64,000 nt of DNA from an uncultured Desulfatiglans sp. (GTDB lineage: Bacteria; Desulfobacterota; DSM-4660; Desulfatiglandales; Desulfatiglandaceae). Made by a program: the position numbers and the translations under genes. The stretch spans positions 3,899,215 to 3,963,214 of the forward strand of contig LR026961.1 in the NCBI GenBank assembly GCA_900498135.1, in the 5' to 3' direction. Numbering within the stretch: the stretch's first letter is position 1; each line of letters opens with the position of its first letter. The notes under the pieces are model-generated. The model did no database searches, had not been told where the DNA came from, and saw nothing but the letters and a program-made list of their open reading frames with translations. Positions 6,793 to 53,422 of this stretch are shown piece after piece.

Positions 6793-6967
6793 TGTCCATC
6801 CGGAAATGATTTCGCGGTAGGACTAAGTTTCCAATCCGGAAATGAGGATTTTTGGCCAATATCAAGGAAATCAAGCGTTTGCGCGGAGGCGACCTGCAGG
6901 TCGCCGCACAAGCAAACGTGCAGATTGACGCCGAGATTGGCCAAAAAGACCATTTCCGGATGGAAAC
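6793..6967 (+). repeat. Palindromic MITE-like element, copy b (intact, 175 bp)
   Basis: This reference copy of the short form begins TGTCCATCCGGAAATG and ends with its inverted counterpart CATTTCCGGATGGAAAC. Nested inside are a second inverted pair (TTGGCCAAT/ATTGGCCAA), the CGTTTG/CAAACG pair and the central 18-bp palindrome GGCGACCTGCAGGTCGCC. The flanks TATAATG (6786-6792) and TAGAATG (6968-6974) match at 6 of 7 positions, consistent with a target duplication that has mutated. Confidence 0.9.
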
Positions 6968-7049
6968 TAGAATGATGCCTCTGAAAGTGCTATATTAAAA
7001 GATTTATATTTGTACCATAAATAGTGCTTTTTTCGCACAGTGTGTAAAG

Positions 7050-12140: not shown

Positions 12141-12425
<285 letters not shown>

Positions 12426-12434
12426 CTAAAACCC

Positions 12435-13415
12435 TTAAACGACGAAAATGAGAACCAGACTGACAACCATCGCATAGATGGCCGTAGATTGCGAAACCGC
12501 CTGACCGACCAGCATCGTCCTGGTCAGATCGCCGGCCGACTCGATGTTCCTTGCGACCCAGGCCACAGCACCCTCCGCCGTCATCCCGTTGCCGATTCCA
12601 GGGCCGATCCCGCCAAACCCCATCGAGATGCCCGCTCCCAAAAGCGCCATCGCCGGCGCGAGAGCGGCCGTCTCGGGCAGGGCCCGGAACATGAGAATGA
12701 AGCTGACCAGCAATCCAAAGATTGCGGGCGTCTGCGAAACCGCCTGCCCCACCAGCATGGTGGTGGTTACCTGGCCCAGGGTCTCCGGATTGCGCGCAAT
12801 GCCCTGGCAGCTCGCACCGGCTGCCATCCCGCCGCCGATCCCCGATCCGATGGACGCGAGCCCGGTGCTGAGCCCCGCGCCCAGGTATGCGGCCCACATC
12901 GGCATGACGGGGAGGCTTCCCGGATTCATGAACATCAACATCAGCGCGACTACCATGGAGAAGATCGCAGGCGTCTGGGACACCGCTGAACCGATGAGCA
13001 TATTGGTGGTCAGCCGGCTCGTGAAGGCGGGCTGCCGCGCCATGCCCTTGCAGGCCTCTCCTGCGGGGAAGCCTGCGCCGATCCCCGACCCGATGGCCCC
13101 GAACCCCATGCAGACCCCGGCACCGAGAAGCGCCGCCGCGCGCAGAAGGTTGTCGCTGCCGGAGGCAGTGAAAAGCAGCAGGATCGCGATGACCAGCGCG
13201 AAAATAGCCGCTGATTCGGCGATTGCCTGGCCGACCAGCATGTTCTTCAAGATGTCGCCCGACTTGTTGGGTCGATAGGAAAGTCCTTCGTTTGCAAGTC
13301 CGGCCGTGTATCCTTCACCGAGCGCGGCCCCGATGGCGCCAAGGCCGATACACATTCCGGCGCCGACAAAGGATGCCAGCCTGATGAGCGTTGCTGTGTC
13401 CATGTCCATAAACAT
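12435..13415 (-). CDS. Four-hairpin c-type rotor subunit with carboxylates only in hairpin 1
   Basis: The 326-aa protein is four tandem copies of an ATP-synthase c hairpin, about 81 residues each (eight transmembrane helices). Ligand positions: hairpin 1 has Glu34 and Glu67 (GEGY, IAESAA); hairpin 2 Ala114 and Gln147 (VSQTPA); hairpin 3 Gly195 and Gln228 (VSQTPA); hairpin 4 Asn276 and Gln309 (VSQSTA). Only hairpin 1 can bind an ion. This recalls the two-hairpin, one-site c1 of Acetobacterium woodii and archaeal/V-type proteolipids, but with four hairpins. The start at 13415 (alternatives 13409, 13403) lies just after the atpB stop; the 456-aa frame beyond is a shadow of atpB. A ring containing this subunit would carry fewer ions per turn. 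Confidence 0.92.
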   Translation of the reverse strand: MFMDMDTATLIRLASFVGAGMCIGLGAIGAALGEGYTAGLANEGLSYRPNKSGDILKNMLVGQAIAESAAIFALVIAILLLFTASGSDNLLRAAALLGAGVCMGFGAIGSGIGAGFPAGEACKGMARQPAFTSRLTTNMLIGSAVSQTPAIFSMVVALMLMFMNPGSLPVMPMWAAYLGAGLSTGLASIGSGIGGGMAAGASCQGIARNPETLGQVTTTMLVGQAVSQTPAIFGLLVSFILMFRALPETAALAPAMALLGAGISMGFGGIGPGIGNGMTAEGAVAWVARNIESAGDLTRTMLVGQAVSQSTAIYAMVVSLVLIFVV

Positions 13416-13417
13416 AG

Positions 13418-14092
13418 CTATTTTACCTGTACCGAGATGTAAACAAGGGTTAGCATGGTGAACACAAAGGCCTGAATGGTCCCCACGAAGAGGCTGAAGA
13501 AGCAGATCAGCAGCGGGGGCAGCAGAATGCTGTAAATCAGGTGGGAAACGACGAGGATGATGATCGCTCCTCCGAGGATATTCCCATAAAGACGAAAGGA
13601 GATGGAGACGACCTTCGCGATTTCCCCGATGATGTTGAGCGGGGCCATGAAAAACATAGGCTCGCAGTATTCTTTGGCGTATTTCTTGAAGCCTTTGGCC
13701 TTGATTCCCGAGTAGTGCGCGATCACGAAGCCCAAAATCCCGAGGCTGAGAGGGGTATTCAGATCTTTGGTAGGCTCGGAGAGCTTGGGAAAGACACCCA
13801 GCCAATTAGAGAGGATCAAGAACATGAAAAGGCTGCAGATCAGAGGGAAGTATTTCTTGGCCATTTTTTCGTCGAGGGCATCGCGGGTCAAGTCATGGAA
13901 GCCGCCGACGAAAAGCTCGGCCACGACCTGAAAGGGATTGGGGAGGATGCCCTTTTTGCGTGTCGCGAGAAAACCGAAGACGATCAAAATCGCCATGACG
14001 ATCCAGGTCATGATCAGCGTGTCCCGGTTGAACACGAGGTTCATGCCGAACAGCTGAAGGGTCCACTGCGGGATACTGGTCAGGTCTTCCAT
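13418..14092 (-). CDS. atpB: ATP synthase Fo subunit a
   Basis: The 224-aa integral membrane stator channel of Fo has five to six predicted transmembrane helices. The essential arginine is in the motif VSISFRLYGNILGG around residue 165, and the last helix has TIQAFVFTMLTLVYI. It forms the two ion half-channels facing the c ring. The start has the usual MEDLTSIPQW-type N-terminus. It is immediately followed by the four-hairpin c gene (2 bp between stop and start). Confidence 0.93.
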   Translation of the reverse strand: MEDLTSIPQWTLQLFGMNLVFNRDTLIMTWIVMAILIVFGFLATRKKGILPNPFQVVAELFVGGFHDLTRDALDEKMAKKYFPLICSLFMFLILSNWLGVFPKLSEPTKDLNTPLSLGILGFVIAHYSGIKAKGFKKYAKEYCEPMFFMAPLNIIGEIAKVVSISFRLYGNILGGAIIILVVSHLIYSILLPPLLICFFSLFVGTIQAFVFTMLTLVYISVQVK

Positions 14093-14134: not shown

Positions 14135-14536
14135 CTACTGCGATGTCCCTCCCCCGGTAAGAGGACGAATGACCAAATGATCGGCAAGCATGACAATCTG
14201 GACCGCAAACAAACCCACCGCCACCCCGGGAAAGTTGAATGAGGGGGACTTAGCCGCCAGGATCAAGGGCACAGCAAGAACGATATACCTCGTTGCGATC
14301 GAGGCCAAGCCGGTCATTCTGGCGCGGGCCTGGCTTCGGCCAAGAAGGAGCGGCCCCCAGATGCCCATCAGCAGAAAATTGACGACGCTGAAGGCGGCAC
14401 CGAGGAGCAGGCCTTTTCCCAGGGGGCGCTCCCCAAGCAGGATAAAAACCACCGCCCCCGCGATGAAAACCAGCAGGGCCTTTGCGGCGATTTTTGCTTG
14501 AAAGCGGCTAACCTCGGCGAACGACGTATCACGCAT
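14135..14536 (-). CDS. atpI: ATP synthase subunit I (AtpI family)
   Basis: The 133-aa protein has four hydrophobic segments (LLVFIAGAVVFILL, LLLGAAFSVVNFLLMGI, YIVLAVPLILAA, VAVGLFAVQIVMLA), as in ATP-synt_I proteins. AtpI assists c-ring assembly and possibly ion supply in other bacteria. It lies upstream of atpB and overlaps the previous gene by 8 bp. Sequence conservation is weak in this family, so the call rests on topology and position. Confidence 0.8.
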   Translation of the reverse strand: MRDTSFAEVSRFQAKIAAKALLVFIAGAVVFILLGERPLGKGLLLGAAFSVVNFLLMGIWGPLLLGRSQARARMTGLASIATRYIVLAVPLILAAKSPSFNFPGVAVGLFAVQIVMLADHLVIRPLTGGGTSQ

Positions 14537-14819
14537 CTTTGTTCTGCTTGTCCGTATCTCGAGTCACTTCCATGATCTGCCGATAGGCGGTGTATCCCCC
14601 ACCCGCGATGCCCAGAAGGATGAATATGGTGATGAACAGGCCCTTCGTGTGCAGCCACTTGTCAAGATAGTATCCTATAGCGAAGCAGAACAGGATAGAA
14701 CCAGCGATGGTCAATCCGACCTGGCTGACAAGAGCGACGTCATCAACCCATTTGCCGTGCTTCTTTATATTGAAGATAGGCCTCTCTCCGAGCTTCGGCG
14801 CGGCACGCAGCCAAGGCAC
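14529..14819 (-). CDS. atpZ: AtpZ-like small membrane protein, first gene of Fo operon
   Basis: A short two-helix protein (VALVSQVGLTIAGSILFCFA; LFITIFILLGIAGGGYTAY) of the ATP-synthase gene 1/AtpZ family is typically found before atpI. The start is uncertain. The longest frame begins at 14906, upstream of the operon promoter (14847-14875), so it cannot be the start of that transcript. A GTG at 14819 lies about 20 nt behind the predicted transcript start and gives 96 aa; a non-standard start nearer the conserved GKWVDDVALVS cannot be excluded. Confidence 0.72.
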   Translation of the reverse strand: MPWLRAAPKLGERPIFNIKKHGKWVDDVALVSQVGLTIAGSILFCFAIGYYLDKWLHTKGLFITIFILLGIAGGGYTAYRQIMEVTRDTDKQNKDA

Positions 14820-14846
14820 TCCGATGCACGCGCGGATTGGGGCACA

Positions 14847-14875
14847 TCTATAGAATGAATGACACCGTCTGTCAA
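14847..14875 (-). promoter_or_regulatory. Sigma70 promoter of the Fo operon
   Basis: Minus strand: perfect -35 TTGACA (14870-14875), 17-bp spacer, -10 TATAGA (14847-14852). Predicted transcription start is near 14840. Confidence 0.82.
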
Positions 14876-15033
14876 GGGCAAAAATGAGAAGAAATACTCT
14901 GCACACGCAATGCCAGGAACCCGCCGCGGAGTAAGACAGGGGACTGCCAGACCCCTCGCTGTTTCAATCTGTTCCGGCTTCTCCCTCGCTCGCCGCTCCC
15001 CCCACCTCCAAGCAAGAAGAAACAGGGGCGTCT

Positions 15034-15151
15034 GTTTGGCCAATGTCAAGGAAATCCAGCGTTTGTGCGGAGGCGACCTGCAGGTCGCCGCACAAGCAAA
15101 CGTGCAGATGGACGCCGAGATGGGCCAAAAAGACCATTTCCGGATGGAATC
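15034..15151 (+). repeat. Palindromic element, copy d (left arm missing)
   Basis: Direct orientation; the core and right arm are nearly perfect, including the central 18-bp palindrome and the CATTTCCGGATGGAATC end. The left arm ends at TTTGGCCAATG and is replaced by unrelated sequence. It ends 3 bp before the candidate -35 box of the padR promoter, so it now forms the upstream edge of that promoter. The remainder of 14876-15033 shows nothing I can identify. Confidence 0.85.
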
Positions 15152-15154
15152 TTG

Positions 15155-15206
15155 TTGACCGGTTAATTCATTGTGTATATGGATAGTATTATAATCTGTA
15201 ATATTC
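15155..15206 (+). promoter_or_regulatory. Promoter and possible operator upstream of padR
   Basis: Two overlapping options exist: TTGACC (15155-15160) with 17 bp to TATGGA, or a perfect -10 TATAAT (15190-15195) with a weak -35 17 bp before. An inverted repeat TATTA-N7-TAATA (15187-15203) overlaps the perfect -10 box. It is a plausible self-operator for the PadR protein, as such regulators usually bind A/T-rich dyads near their own promoters. Confidence 0.5.
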
Positions 15207-15232
15207 CGATTAAAACTGAGATCTGGTTGGGG

Positions 15233-15778
15233 ATGAAAGCACGGGAATCGGTGGATTATCTGCTCCTTGGCTCTTTGGCCGCTGGACCGAAGCACGGCTA
15301 TGAGATTCTGCAGTTCCTCGAGCAGCATTTCGGCCCGGCCTGGTATGTCGGCAACAGCCAGCTTTATACCGTTCTGAAGAGACTCGAGAGGAAACGGCTC
15401 GTTTCTTCGGAGGTGAGATCTCAGGAGAACCGCCCGGCTAAACGGGTGTTTTCGCTCACGGCCGCGGGCCGATCGGCCTTCCAGGCGTGGCTCGGGAAAC
15501 CTGTAAAACACATCAGGGATATGCGGGTCGAGTTCATTGCCAAGCTTTTCTTCGCTGGGCATATGGAAACGCCGGTGCTGCGCCGACTCATCGCAGCCCA
15601 GCAGGACATCCTGAATAAGACCTCCGAGCGCATTCGCTCCCGTCTCCAAAAGGAACAGGACGGTTTCTCGCGGCTTATTCTTTCGTCCAAGCTCGCTATG
15701 GCCCGATCCTGGACGGCATGGCTCCACGAGAGCGTGGAGCCTTACATCGAAACATTTGGAGGAACCGCGCATGGATGA
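15233..15778 (+). CDS. PadR-family transcriptional regulator
   Basis: The 181-aa PadR-type winged-helix regulator has an N-terminal DNA-binding domain (DYLLLGSLAAGPKHGYEILQ, then the wing around LYTVLKRLERKRLV and KRVFSLTAAGR) and a C-terminal helical dimerisation domain ending SVEPYIETFGG. Such proteins repress phenolic-stress or efflux genes in other bacteria; the ligand here is unknown. The start at 15233 has GGTTGGGG just upstream. It overlaps the next gene by 8 bp, so both are co-expressed and the regulator may control the downstream sufCB genes. Confidence 0.88.
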   Translation: MKARESVDYLLLGSLAAGPKHGYEILQFLEQHFGPAWYVGNSQLYTVLKRLERKRLVSSEVRSQENRPAKRVFSLTAAGRSAFQAWLGKPVKHIRDMRVEFIAKLFFAGHMETPVLRRLIAAQQDILNKTSERIRSRLQKEQDGFSRLILSSKLAMARSWTAWLHESVEPYIETFGGTAHG

Positions 15779-22218: not shown

Positions 22219-22392
22219 GTTTCCATCCGGACACGATTTTGCCGCAGAATCGACTTCTATACGAAGATAAGCAGTTTTATCTAAAATTAAGGAAATCAAG
22301 CGCTTGCGCTCAGGCGACCTGCAGGTCGCCGCATCGGCAAACGGGCGGATTGACGCCCAGATCAGGGAAAAGGGCCTTTCCGGACGATAAGT
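22219..22392 (+). repeat. Palindromic element, copy f (full length, diverged)
   Basis: 174 bp, starting GTTTCCATCCGG and ending CTTTCCGGACGATAA. The core keeps GGCGACCTGCAGGTCGCC but the flanking arms are diverged (GCGCTTGCGCTCA; CATCGGCAAACGGGCGG). Between this copy and copy g (22393-22649) is a weak 44-codon frame at 22407; I see no convincing gene. Confidence 0.82.
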
Positions 22393-22649
22393 GTTAGGAG
22401 CGACCTATGCCCGCCGACATCCACTCTCGCGATCGAACAGGCAAATCCGAAGAACACCCCCTGAACTTCTTGACAATATCCCTTGCCCTCTTTACCCTTA
22501 ACAATAGTGAACATCCGTTGGTGTTCCCTTACAGCCGATAGTCTTGATGCCCAGGCAATGCATCTATAGACTTCGCGGTGCGCCGCGTGGAGTTGACTCG
22601 TGATGGCTCAAACCAGAAGCCATCGCACCTGAATTTTTATCCAGACCAA

Positions 22650-22790
22650 TCCCACCGCTTCGTAGCGGATCCCGGTTTGGGCGATATCAAGGAAATCAAG
22701 CGTTTGCGCGGAGGCGACCTGCAGGTCGCCGCACAAGCGAACGTGCAGATTGACGCCGAGATGGGTCAAAAAGACCATTTCCCCGTAGAA
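22650..22790 (+). repeat. Palindromic element, copy g (long-form left module, tandem with h)
   Basis: This copy has the long-form module CCCACCGCTTCGTAGCGGATC before the core, then an intact core. The right arm is cut at CATTTCCCCGTAGAAA, which merges into the left arm of copy h. The pair therefore looks like a recombinant tandem dimer. Confidence 0.82.
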
Positions 22791-22935
22791 ACTCGTTTCC
22801 AATCCGGAAATGAGGATTTTTGGCCCATATCAAGGAAATCAAGCGTTTGCGCGGAGGCGACCTGCAGGTCGCCGCACAAGCAAACGTGCAGATTGACGCC
22901 GAGATGGGCCAAAAAGACCATTTCCGGATGGAAAC
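22791..22935 (+). repeat. Palindromic element, copy h (tandem with g)
   Basis: Nearly perfect inner unit, from GTTTCCAATCCGGAAATGAGG to CATTTCCGGATGGAAAC, with inner arms TTGGCCCAT and ATGGGCCAA: compensatory changes on both sides keep the pairing. It ends 35 bp before the start codon of the small gene at 22971. Confidence 0.88.
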
Positions 22936-22970
22936 TATTTTAGAATTGAAGCCACCCAAGGAGAACGCCG

Positions 22971-44326: not shown

Positions 44327-44501
44327 TATCCATCCGGAAATGATTTCCCTATAGAACCCAGTTTCCAATCCGGAAATGAGGATTTTTGGCCAATATCAAG
44401 GAAATCAAGCGCTTGCGCGGAGGCAACCTAGTGGTCGCCGCACAAGCAAACGTGCAGATTGACGCCGAGATTGGCCAAAAAGACCATTTCCGGATGGAAA
44501 C
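44327..44501 (+). repeat. Palindromic element, copy k (intact, 175 bp)
   Basis: Same length and boundaries as copy b. The central palindrome is altered to GGCAACCTAGTGGTCGCC. Flanks TAGGTTG (44320-44326) and TAGATTT (44502-44508) share 5 of 7 bases, a possible decayed target duplication. The remaining 160 bp before prfB holds no other clear feature. Confidence 0.88.
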
Positions 44502-44663
44502 TAGATTTAAATTCTGGAATGGCCTCCCCTAATCCCGCCGCAGGATCCGCGCCCGGGAGGCGACAGGTGCCCGACCCGCCCGCAGGAAGGATGGGGGCGC
44601 CTCACGAATCGAGGCGTTCAACGTCTCGGTCTTCAATCCCCATACAGGTTCAAGGAGGTTCAC

Positions 44664-52988: not shown

Positions 52989-53267
52989 TTTTCATCCGGA
53001 AATGATTTCCCGGTAGAACCCAGTTTCCAATCCAGAAATGAGGATTTTTCTTTACACGCTGCGCGTGCTCAGTCTCACCCTTGTGGGGCGGATCCCGGTT
53101 TCTCTACACGCTGCGCGTGCTCAGTACCACCCCTGCGGGGCGGGTCCCCGTTTGGCCAATATCAAGGAAATCAAGCATTTGCGCGGAGGCGTCCTGCAGG
53201 TCGCCGCACAAGCAAACATGCAGATTGACGCCGAGATTAGCCAAAAAGACCATTTACGGATGGAAAC
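52989..53267 (+). repeat. Palindromic element, copy l (long form, with exact 8-bp target duplication)
   Basis: A 279-bp copy flanked on both sides by GAGTGTAG (52981-52988 and 53268-53275), strong evidence of insertion by transposition. The ends are TTTTCATCCGGAAATG and CATTTACGGATGGAAAC. The left arm carries two tandem modules of about 52 bp (ACGCTGCGCGTGCTCAGT followed by a GGGGCGG-rich hairpin side), making this the clearest long form. 53276-53422 holds nothing else recognisable. Confidence 0.9.
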
Positions 53268-53422
53268 GAGTGTAGACCCGGCGCCTCTGTTGGGGCAACC
53301 TGAAGCCCAGGCGAAGCCGTTCCGGATTGTCCTCCGGGTCTGAGATCTCGCAAAGAACCAGGCAAAAGAGTATAACAAGCAAGGGAGAAAAGACAAGGTG
53401 AAATCTGGCGGCATCGAAACGG

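Follow-up and report, generated by a model that had tools for sequence, protein, structure and literature searches.

The number of ion-binding sites on the rotor ring of a rotary ATPase sets the ion cost of ATP, and is usually altered via the size of the ring. In the solved Na+ rotors each site is shared between two hairpins, with Glu65 and Gln/Glu32 contributed by one hairpin and Ser66, Tyr70 and a backbone carbonyl by its neighbour (PMC2359735; PMC3692424). Thus, in the K subunit of Enterococcus hirae the Glu lies in hairpin 2 and Thr64/Tyr68 in hairpin 1 (PMC2359735), while in the c ring of Fusobacterium nucleatum the site comprises Glu32/Glu65 and Ser66 from the adjacent subunit (PMC3692424). 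In the F/V-hybrid Na+ rotor of Acetobacterium woodii, a two-hairpin subunit (c1) is found once with nine c2 chains (PDB 4BEM), and a ratio of nine single c subunits to one c1 has been determined by mass spectrometry (PMC8904574). Here we describe a four-hairpin c subunit (c4; 326 amino acids; 12435..13415, minus strand) encoded in a stretch of 64,000 nucleotides, hereafter the window, from an uncultured Desulfatiglans sp. (GCA_900498135.1; contig LR026961.1, positions 3,899,215 to 3,963,214 of the forward strand). With fair confidence, we suggest that c4 is the fused rotor subunit of a second, Na+-type Fo, in which it would form part of a mixed ring and use the single delta-bearing F1 of the cell.

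The c4 reading frame extends from an ATG at position 13415 to a stop codon ending at position 12435. Its product contains four ATP-synt_C stretches (PF00137; E: 9e-58; 192.8 bits; above the curated cut-off), with a hairpin spacing of 80-81 residues, and the helices of its AlphaFold model (predicted local distance difference test, pLDDT: 94.9; predicted template modelling score, pTM: 0.91) fit eight transmembrane segments. The Pfam match, and an operon that includes PF00119 subunit a and PF00430 subunit b genes, identify c4 as an F-type ATP synthase subunit c. Classification as a V/A-type subunit K was rejected, as the K models score below their own cut-offs and the neighbouring genes are F-type. 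Hairpin 1 (residues 8-82; 13170..13394, minus strand, as are all features of c4) carries E34, E67, S68, A69 and F72, and as such the carboxylate half of a site. The codons of Glu34 (13314..13316) and Glu67 (13215..13217) correspond to positions 32 and 65 in the Ilyobacter/Fusobacterium c numbering, which is used below for the site positions 32, 65, 66, 67 and 70. Hairpin 2 (residues 88-162; 12930..13154; A114, Q147-T148-P149 and F152) and hairpin 3 (about residues 170-243; 12687..12908; G195, Q228-T-P and F233) are without an ion site, while hairpin 4 (residues 251-324; 12444..12665), despite N276 and Q309, retains the ligand half in S310-T311 and Y314. The codons of Gln147, Gln228 and Gln309 are located at 12975..12977, 12732..12734 and 12489..12491, respectively. 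Translation and the Pfam matches thereby bear out the four fused hairpins, with E34/E67, three Gln and helix-1 equivalents of Ala114, Gly195 and Asn276 in hairpins 2-4, reported by a first-pass annotation of this DNA. Its statement that glutamates are confined to hairpin 1 is correct for the ion-site positions in mid-membrane, but further Glu residues are present at 43, 120, 211, 248, 281 and 292, all off these positions.

Comparison with a genome of the same genus revealed 46 synonymous and one non-synonymous codon differences in c4, and changes at second codon positions are no faster in the site-less hairpins than in hairpin 1. The c4 gene is under purifying selection, with its site-less hairpins constrained as much as hairpin 1. 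This conservation, and the presence of 92 multi-hairpin open reading frames (ORFs; 85 distinct proteins) at other loci, rule out chance and sequencing or assembly artefacts, including the merging of separate genes which the first-pass annotation had named as a refuting outcome.

The best sequence match of c4 (E: 1e-24) and its top fold match (Z: 16.3; 1.4 Å over 156 residues) is A. woodii c1 (PDB 4BEM chain J). Both are encoded in F-type operons with an AtpI and a single-hairpin Na+ c alongside, both have fewer sites than hairpins, and in both a Glu and Phe70 are found in the first hairpin (AETSGIF in c1) and a Gln with Thr67/Tyr70 in the last (AQTTGIY in c1). The c4 protein is thus an A. woodii c1-like rotor subunit, as had been proposed, with one site per four hairpins. 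The two differ in that c1 has two hairpins, compared with four in c4 and two to six in its family, carries Gln32 in place of Glu32 and lacks the inner QTP-F blank hairpins, and in that a second Fo is not reported for A. woodii in the literature examined. A tree of the hairpins places the first hairpin of A. woodii c1 with the c2 of the same organism (support: 91), while the first hairpins of the c4 family group together (support: 92); this grouping hints that the half-site layout may have arisen twice, separately in c1 and in the fused-c family, although the 74 columns available cannot settle the matter. The single-hairpin c encoded next to c4 (12141..12398, minus strand; 85 amino acids as called) carries all five residues of the two-carboxylate Na+ type site, E32, E65, S66, T67 and Y70, as does the F. 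nucleatum c ring (PDB 3ZK1), and the same set is restored at a c4 junction formed by hairpin 1 and a preceding last hairpin. The F. nucleatum ring is, however, homomeric and composed of single hairpins in which every site is active (PMC3692424). V/A-type K subunits (three hairpins in Methanocaldococcus jannaschii, 13 in Methanopyrus kandleri and two in E. hirae) share with c4 the fusion of hairpins, some loss of sites and sites formed between two hairpins (PMC2359735), but differ in operon type, with a PF00119 subunit a gene beside c4, and in that runs of blank hairpins in the fused-c family reach five, with a single c as companion. Multi-hairpin c/K subunits are treated in general terms in the ProAD database paper (PMC11738941). 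A search of the open-access literature, with subscription papers mostly outside its reach, found no account of F-type c subunits with four to six hairpins, the half-site rule set out below or a single F1 combined with two Fo.

The residue pattern of c4 recurs in the 85 distinct proteins. Their first hairpins always carry Glu32 and Glu65, together with Phe70 in 85/85, while the last hairpins carry Tyr70 in 85/85 and Thr67 in 84/85. At the internal junctions, Glu65 of a hairpin (k) tracks Tyr70 of the preceding hairpin (k-1) in 269 of 271 cases, with both present at 27 junctions, neither at 242, and two exceptions. Pairing of the Glu with the following hairpin was rejected, since E65 correlates with Y70 of k-1 and shows the opposite trend for k+1. 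All 243 site-less hairpins have Gln, and the Gln and Pro-Phe of these blank hairpins are strongly conserved, showing no drift. Eight additional proteins, which do not include the three-hairpin protein of genome G067, already counted among the 85, obey the same rule; they include a two-hairpin form (E..F followed by Q..Y) and a two-site form with Tyr70 in both hairpins (L170). The two ends of a fused c thus appear, from their residues, to hold complementary halves of a putative Na+ site, and therefore a working site would be expected only where c4 meets a neighbour. The direction of this composite site agrees with the solved sites of E. hirae K and F. nucleatum.

Homologues with multiple hairpins and the Gln pattern, for which a search had been proposed, proved to be present in many Desulfobacterota. 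Among 395 genomes sampled at the level of this phylum, to which the window belongs, 35 contain a match at E <= 1e-50, a number that rises to 43 at E <= 1e-26, with two, three, four, five or six hairpins per fused c in the genomes inspected. One cultured relative, Desulfosarcina widdelii (L009), encodes a single c and a fused c whose four hairpins read E, Q, Q and Q. The expectation that the four-hairpin, one-site form would be much rarer than c1 was not upheld. As matches are spread over 43/395 genomes and hairpin number varies from two to six, the fused c is a conserved family and is not peculiar to one genome. A scan of 84,980 species genomes with peptide patterns that reach close relatives only yielded 59 loci, the titles of which, where given, are all of Desulfobacterota or Deltaproteobacteria type. 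Nearly all related loci keep the gene order Z-I-a-c[n]-c-b'-b; where the sequence is complete, the single c almost always comes after the fused c, and about a dozen loci continue straight into delta, alpha, gamma and beta. In one locus (L170; G130:C225:8000-15000) the single c precedes a two-hairpin c with both sites intact (E..Y in each hairpin), possibly a state before site loss. In a metagenome-assembled genome (L054; 5001-5979), which was excluded from the counts, the fused c is split by an apparent frameshift into one-hairpin and three-hairpin frames. The window c4 more closely resembles its counterparts in other orders, at 74% in G129, than the majority of those in its own order (54-60%), and is missing from most sampled members of the family of the window genome; this patchy occurrence and cross-order similarity suggest horizontal transfer or patchy loss.

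Two further features of the locus were missed by the first-pass annotation: the operon is without F1 genes, and the genome contains a second, H+-type Fo and one matching F1. Three a/c sets are present in the window genome (4.8 Mb, one contig), namely the window operon, a set at 563 kb and an N-type cluster at 778-783 kb. The 563 kb set comprises a subunit a with only 35% identity to the window a and a single-hairpin c with the H+ pattern Met32/Leu67. Besides the N-type F1, the sole F-type F1, accompanied by b' and b genes of its own, is found at 2.42 Mb, and the Na+ Fo operon is far from both F1 loci. The other ATP-synt_ab matches in this genome belong, by their neighbours, to flagellar and type III export ATPases, with a weak Rho-like match. 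Assignment of the window operon itself to the N-ATPases, defined by a single cluster with beta, epsilon, a, c, b, alpha and gamma, was rejected, since it has no F1 genes and the N-type cluster sits elsewhere.

A comparable complement is found in all 35 fused-c genomes compared, which encode two F-type a subunits but a single stand-alone OSCP/delta and a single F-type gamma. Where additional gamma or a genes occur in these genomes, they are N-type, while weak second OSCP matches are short, lie inside longer frames and are consistent with N-type b. The second a always adjoins a single c with Leu at position 67, and an aliphatic residue at this position is a mark of H+ c subunits (PMC2359735). 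Genomes that lack a fused c, within a sample of 88, encode a single F-type a; apparent departures from this were traced to N-type clusters or, in G067, to a three-hairpin fused c, and G067 was accordingly rejected as a two-a genome without a fused c. In families f22, f33 and f45, delta-alpha-gamma-beta comes immediately after a-c[n]-c-b'-b, which makes an orphan of the H+ Fo, and the H+ Fo is without F1 in all 34 fetched regions. Since it depends on the family whether F1 adjoins the Na+ Fo or is separate from it, and none of these 34 regions has F1 with the H+ Fo, sharing is the simplest reading, and the gene counts and linkage most likely reflect one F1 serving two exchangeable Fo motors. The F1 at 2.42 Mb would very likely be used both by the Na+ Fo and by the 563 kb Fo of the standard H+ F-ATP synthase of the window genome. 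A C-terminal motif common to the b subunits was considered as an F1-binding mark, but rejected as too loose. A candidate Na+ pump, Rnf, is encoded in 35/36 fused-c genomes, compared with 27/79 sampled genomes without a fused c, counts which are uncorrected for relatedness.

We propose that c4 joins a ring with the single c encoded by the adjacent gene, most likely as one c4, an eight-helix sector, among several single c subunits. Each Na+ site would lie between two hairpins, with Glu32/Glu65 from one and Ser66/Thr67/Tyr70 from the preceding hairpin in chain order. As the first hairpin of c4 keeps the Glu half only and the last the Ser/Thr/Tyr half only, a full site would form at the contact between c4 and its neighbour, while the three interfaces within c4 would be blank, plugged by Gln residues that may mimic a neutral, ion-loaded Glu. 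Each c4 would thereby take three sites from the ring, lowering the ion/ATP ratio while ring size and fit to F1 remain unchanged. The Na+ Fo, having no F1 of its own, would use the single delta-bearing F1 that also serves the separate H+-type Fo, and the cell could couple this F1 either to Na+, for which Rnf is the probable source, or to H+.

The consequences for gearing were calculated for an 11-hairpin ring (12 for three c4) and 50 kJ/mol for ATP. A ring of single c subunits would require 11/3 ions per ATP and about 141 mV, one c4 with seven c 8/3 ions and about 194 mV, and a six-hairpin c (c6) with five c 6/3 ions and about 259 mV, while three c4 would require 3/3 ions and about 518 mV, which is unusable for synthesis. 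One c4 per ring thus costs three sites and no more. Because c4 has A. woodii c1 (one per nine c2) as its best match, and because the Shine-Dalgarno sequence of the single c is stronger than those of the fused c subunits in 82/84 loci (medians: -10.9 vs -3.8 kcal/mol), we infer a mixed ring with about one fused subunit, the rest being mostly single c. The earlier proposal that a ring containing c4 would move fewer ions per ATP retains the sign of its effect, the size of which depends on copy number, but its corollary, that ATP-driven pumping would be favoured over synthesis, is weakened by the same Shine-Dalgarno comparison and by the 9:1 A. woodii ring. A ring of c4 alone, moving one ion per ATP, would make no ATP, and no finding favours it.

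Several points weigh against the mixed, F1-sharing Na+ rotor proposed here. The strength of a Shine-Dalgarno sequence is a poor guide to copy number. The half-site rule has two exceptions, a Glu in hairpin 3 that follows an F70 hairpin (L055; 4971-5975) and a Tyr70 that precedes a Gln hairpin (L112; 4231-4968). The fused-c tree needs only two to three changes per variable site, so that Fisher P values overstate the independent support, and a sign test of the E65/Y70 pairing on this tree had too few changes to reach significance; the argument rests on these few co-changes, the fixed end residues and the outside case of A. woodii c1. The N-type F1 of the window genome (L078) could in principle pair with the Na+ Fo. 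Furthermore, the engineered fused c10 proton ring of Bacillus PS3 no longer supported ATP synthesis after a single Glu-to-Gln change (PMC8809890), and as such three Gln in a row could stall a ring with c4. The tolerance of three to five consecutive Gln hairpins is surprising in the light of that single change. The same experiment, and the strong conservation of the Gln and Pro-Phe of the blank hairpins, would suit a c4 that takes no part in the work of the energised rotor but acts as an assembly scaffold or a brake, its blank Gln sector halting ion-driven rotation when facing subunit a, for example against ATP loss or Na+ leak. This we regard as unlikely, as the A. woodii ring with one Gln hairpin belongs to a Na+ F1Fo ATP synthase (PMC8904574) and the site-completing residues are kept at both ends of c4, where a pure brake would not need them.

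Less probable still is that the Na+ Fo pairs with the N-type F1 or lacks an F1 partner altogether, as an orphan Na+ channel or relic. The distance of the operon from both F1 loci and the presence of L078 would allow for it, but many fused-c genomes are without an N-type F1, the second (N-type) gamma is missing in most of the 35 genomes, delta-alpha-gamma-beta directly follows the same set in f22, f33 and f45, purifying selection is strong, and the N-type cluster already includes a, c and b genes. A ring of c4 alone, for example three c4 giving 12 hairpins and three sites in a low-gear Na+ pump at about one ion per ATP, would be the first-pass proposal taken to its strongest form and is the most improbable of these alternatives, since, although c4-c4 junctions would also complete a site (S-T-Y of hairpin 4 with E-E of hairpin 1) and the number of sites would be appropriate for ATP-driven pumping, the much stronger ribosome-binding site of the adjacent single c (82/84) would serve no purpose if that subunit were not used, sectors of three blank hairpins would present no carboxylate to subunit a during much of each turn, hairpin numbers of two to six would make fixed fused-only ring sizes vary widely, and the A. 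woodii ring is mixed at 9:1 (PMC8904574).

A mixed Na+ rotor of this kind would mean that site number, in this bacterial lineage, appears to be altered by fusing blank sectors into the ring, and the graded natural series of 2, 3, 4, 5 and 6 hairpins makes it testable how a rotary motor carries consecutive neutral positions past the stator. We give about an even chance to the broader proposition that one F1, with one delta and one F-type gamma, alternates between a proton-driven and a sodium-driven Fo, the gear ratio of the latter having been set in evolution by the number of site-less hairpins fused (2 to 6). The two-Fo arrangement would, if confirmed, be the more novel aspect and represent an energy converter that chooses its coupling ion. 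The phylum includes abundant marine sulfate reducers in which a Na+-pumping Rnf is formed constitutively (PMC11887813).

The operon of the window lies on the minus strand in the order Z (PF09527), I (PF03899), a (PF00119), c4, single c, b' and b. Its first gene encodes an AtpZ/ATPase_gene1-like protein (14529..14906) with an uncertain true start, followed by an AtpI-like protein (14135..14536), a probable c-ring assembly factor, and subunit a (13418..14092), which has a SFRLYGN segment with the expected stator Arg. The true start of the single c is probably at 12389, three codons inward of the called start, giving 82 amino acids, because a GGAGG motif is correctly spaced for that start. Downstream are the genes of a subunit b/b' (PF00430; 11685..12116) and of subunit b (PF00430; 11089..11688), the last ATPase gene. 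A PadR-like regulator gene (15173-15778, plus strand) is divergent from the Na+ Fo operon and is found there within the genus; as it is not beside the operon in lineages outside the genus, it was rejected as a conserved regulator. Elsewhere in the window genome, a cluster at positions 2656000-2665000 (L081) is presumably type III export/secretion-like, with its own FliI/SctN-type ATPase, and is distinct from the flagellar-type one at 2.477 Mb (L080). Finally, a dispersed 138-nt repeat family, accompanied by related shorter families, occurs in the window in eight copies that are 72-96% identical (22-159, 6834-6971, 15018-15155, 22259-22396, 22659-22796, 22802-22939, 44368-44505 and 53134-53271). 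One copy lies directly upstream of the Na+ Fo operon, and sequence resembling the repeat appears as spurious ORFs elsewhere in the genome.
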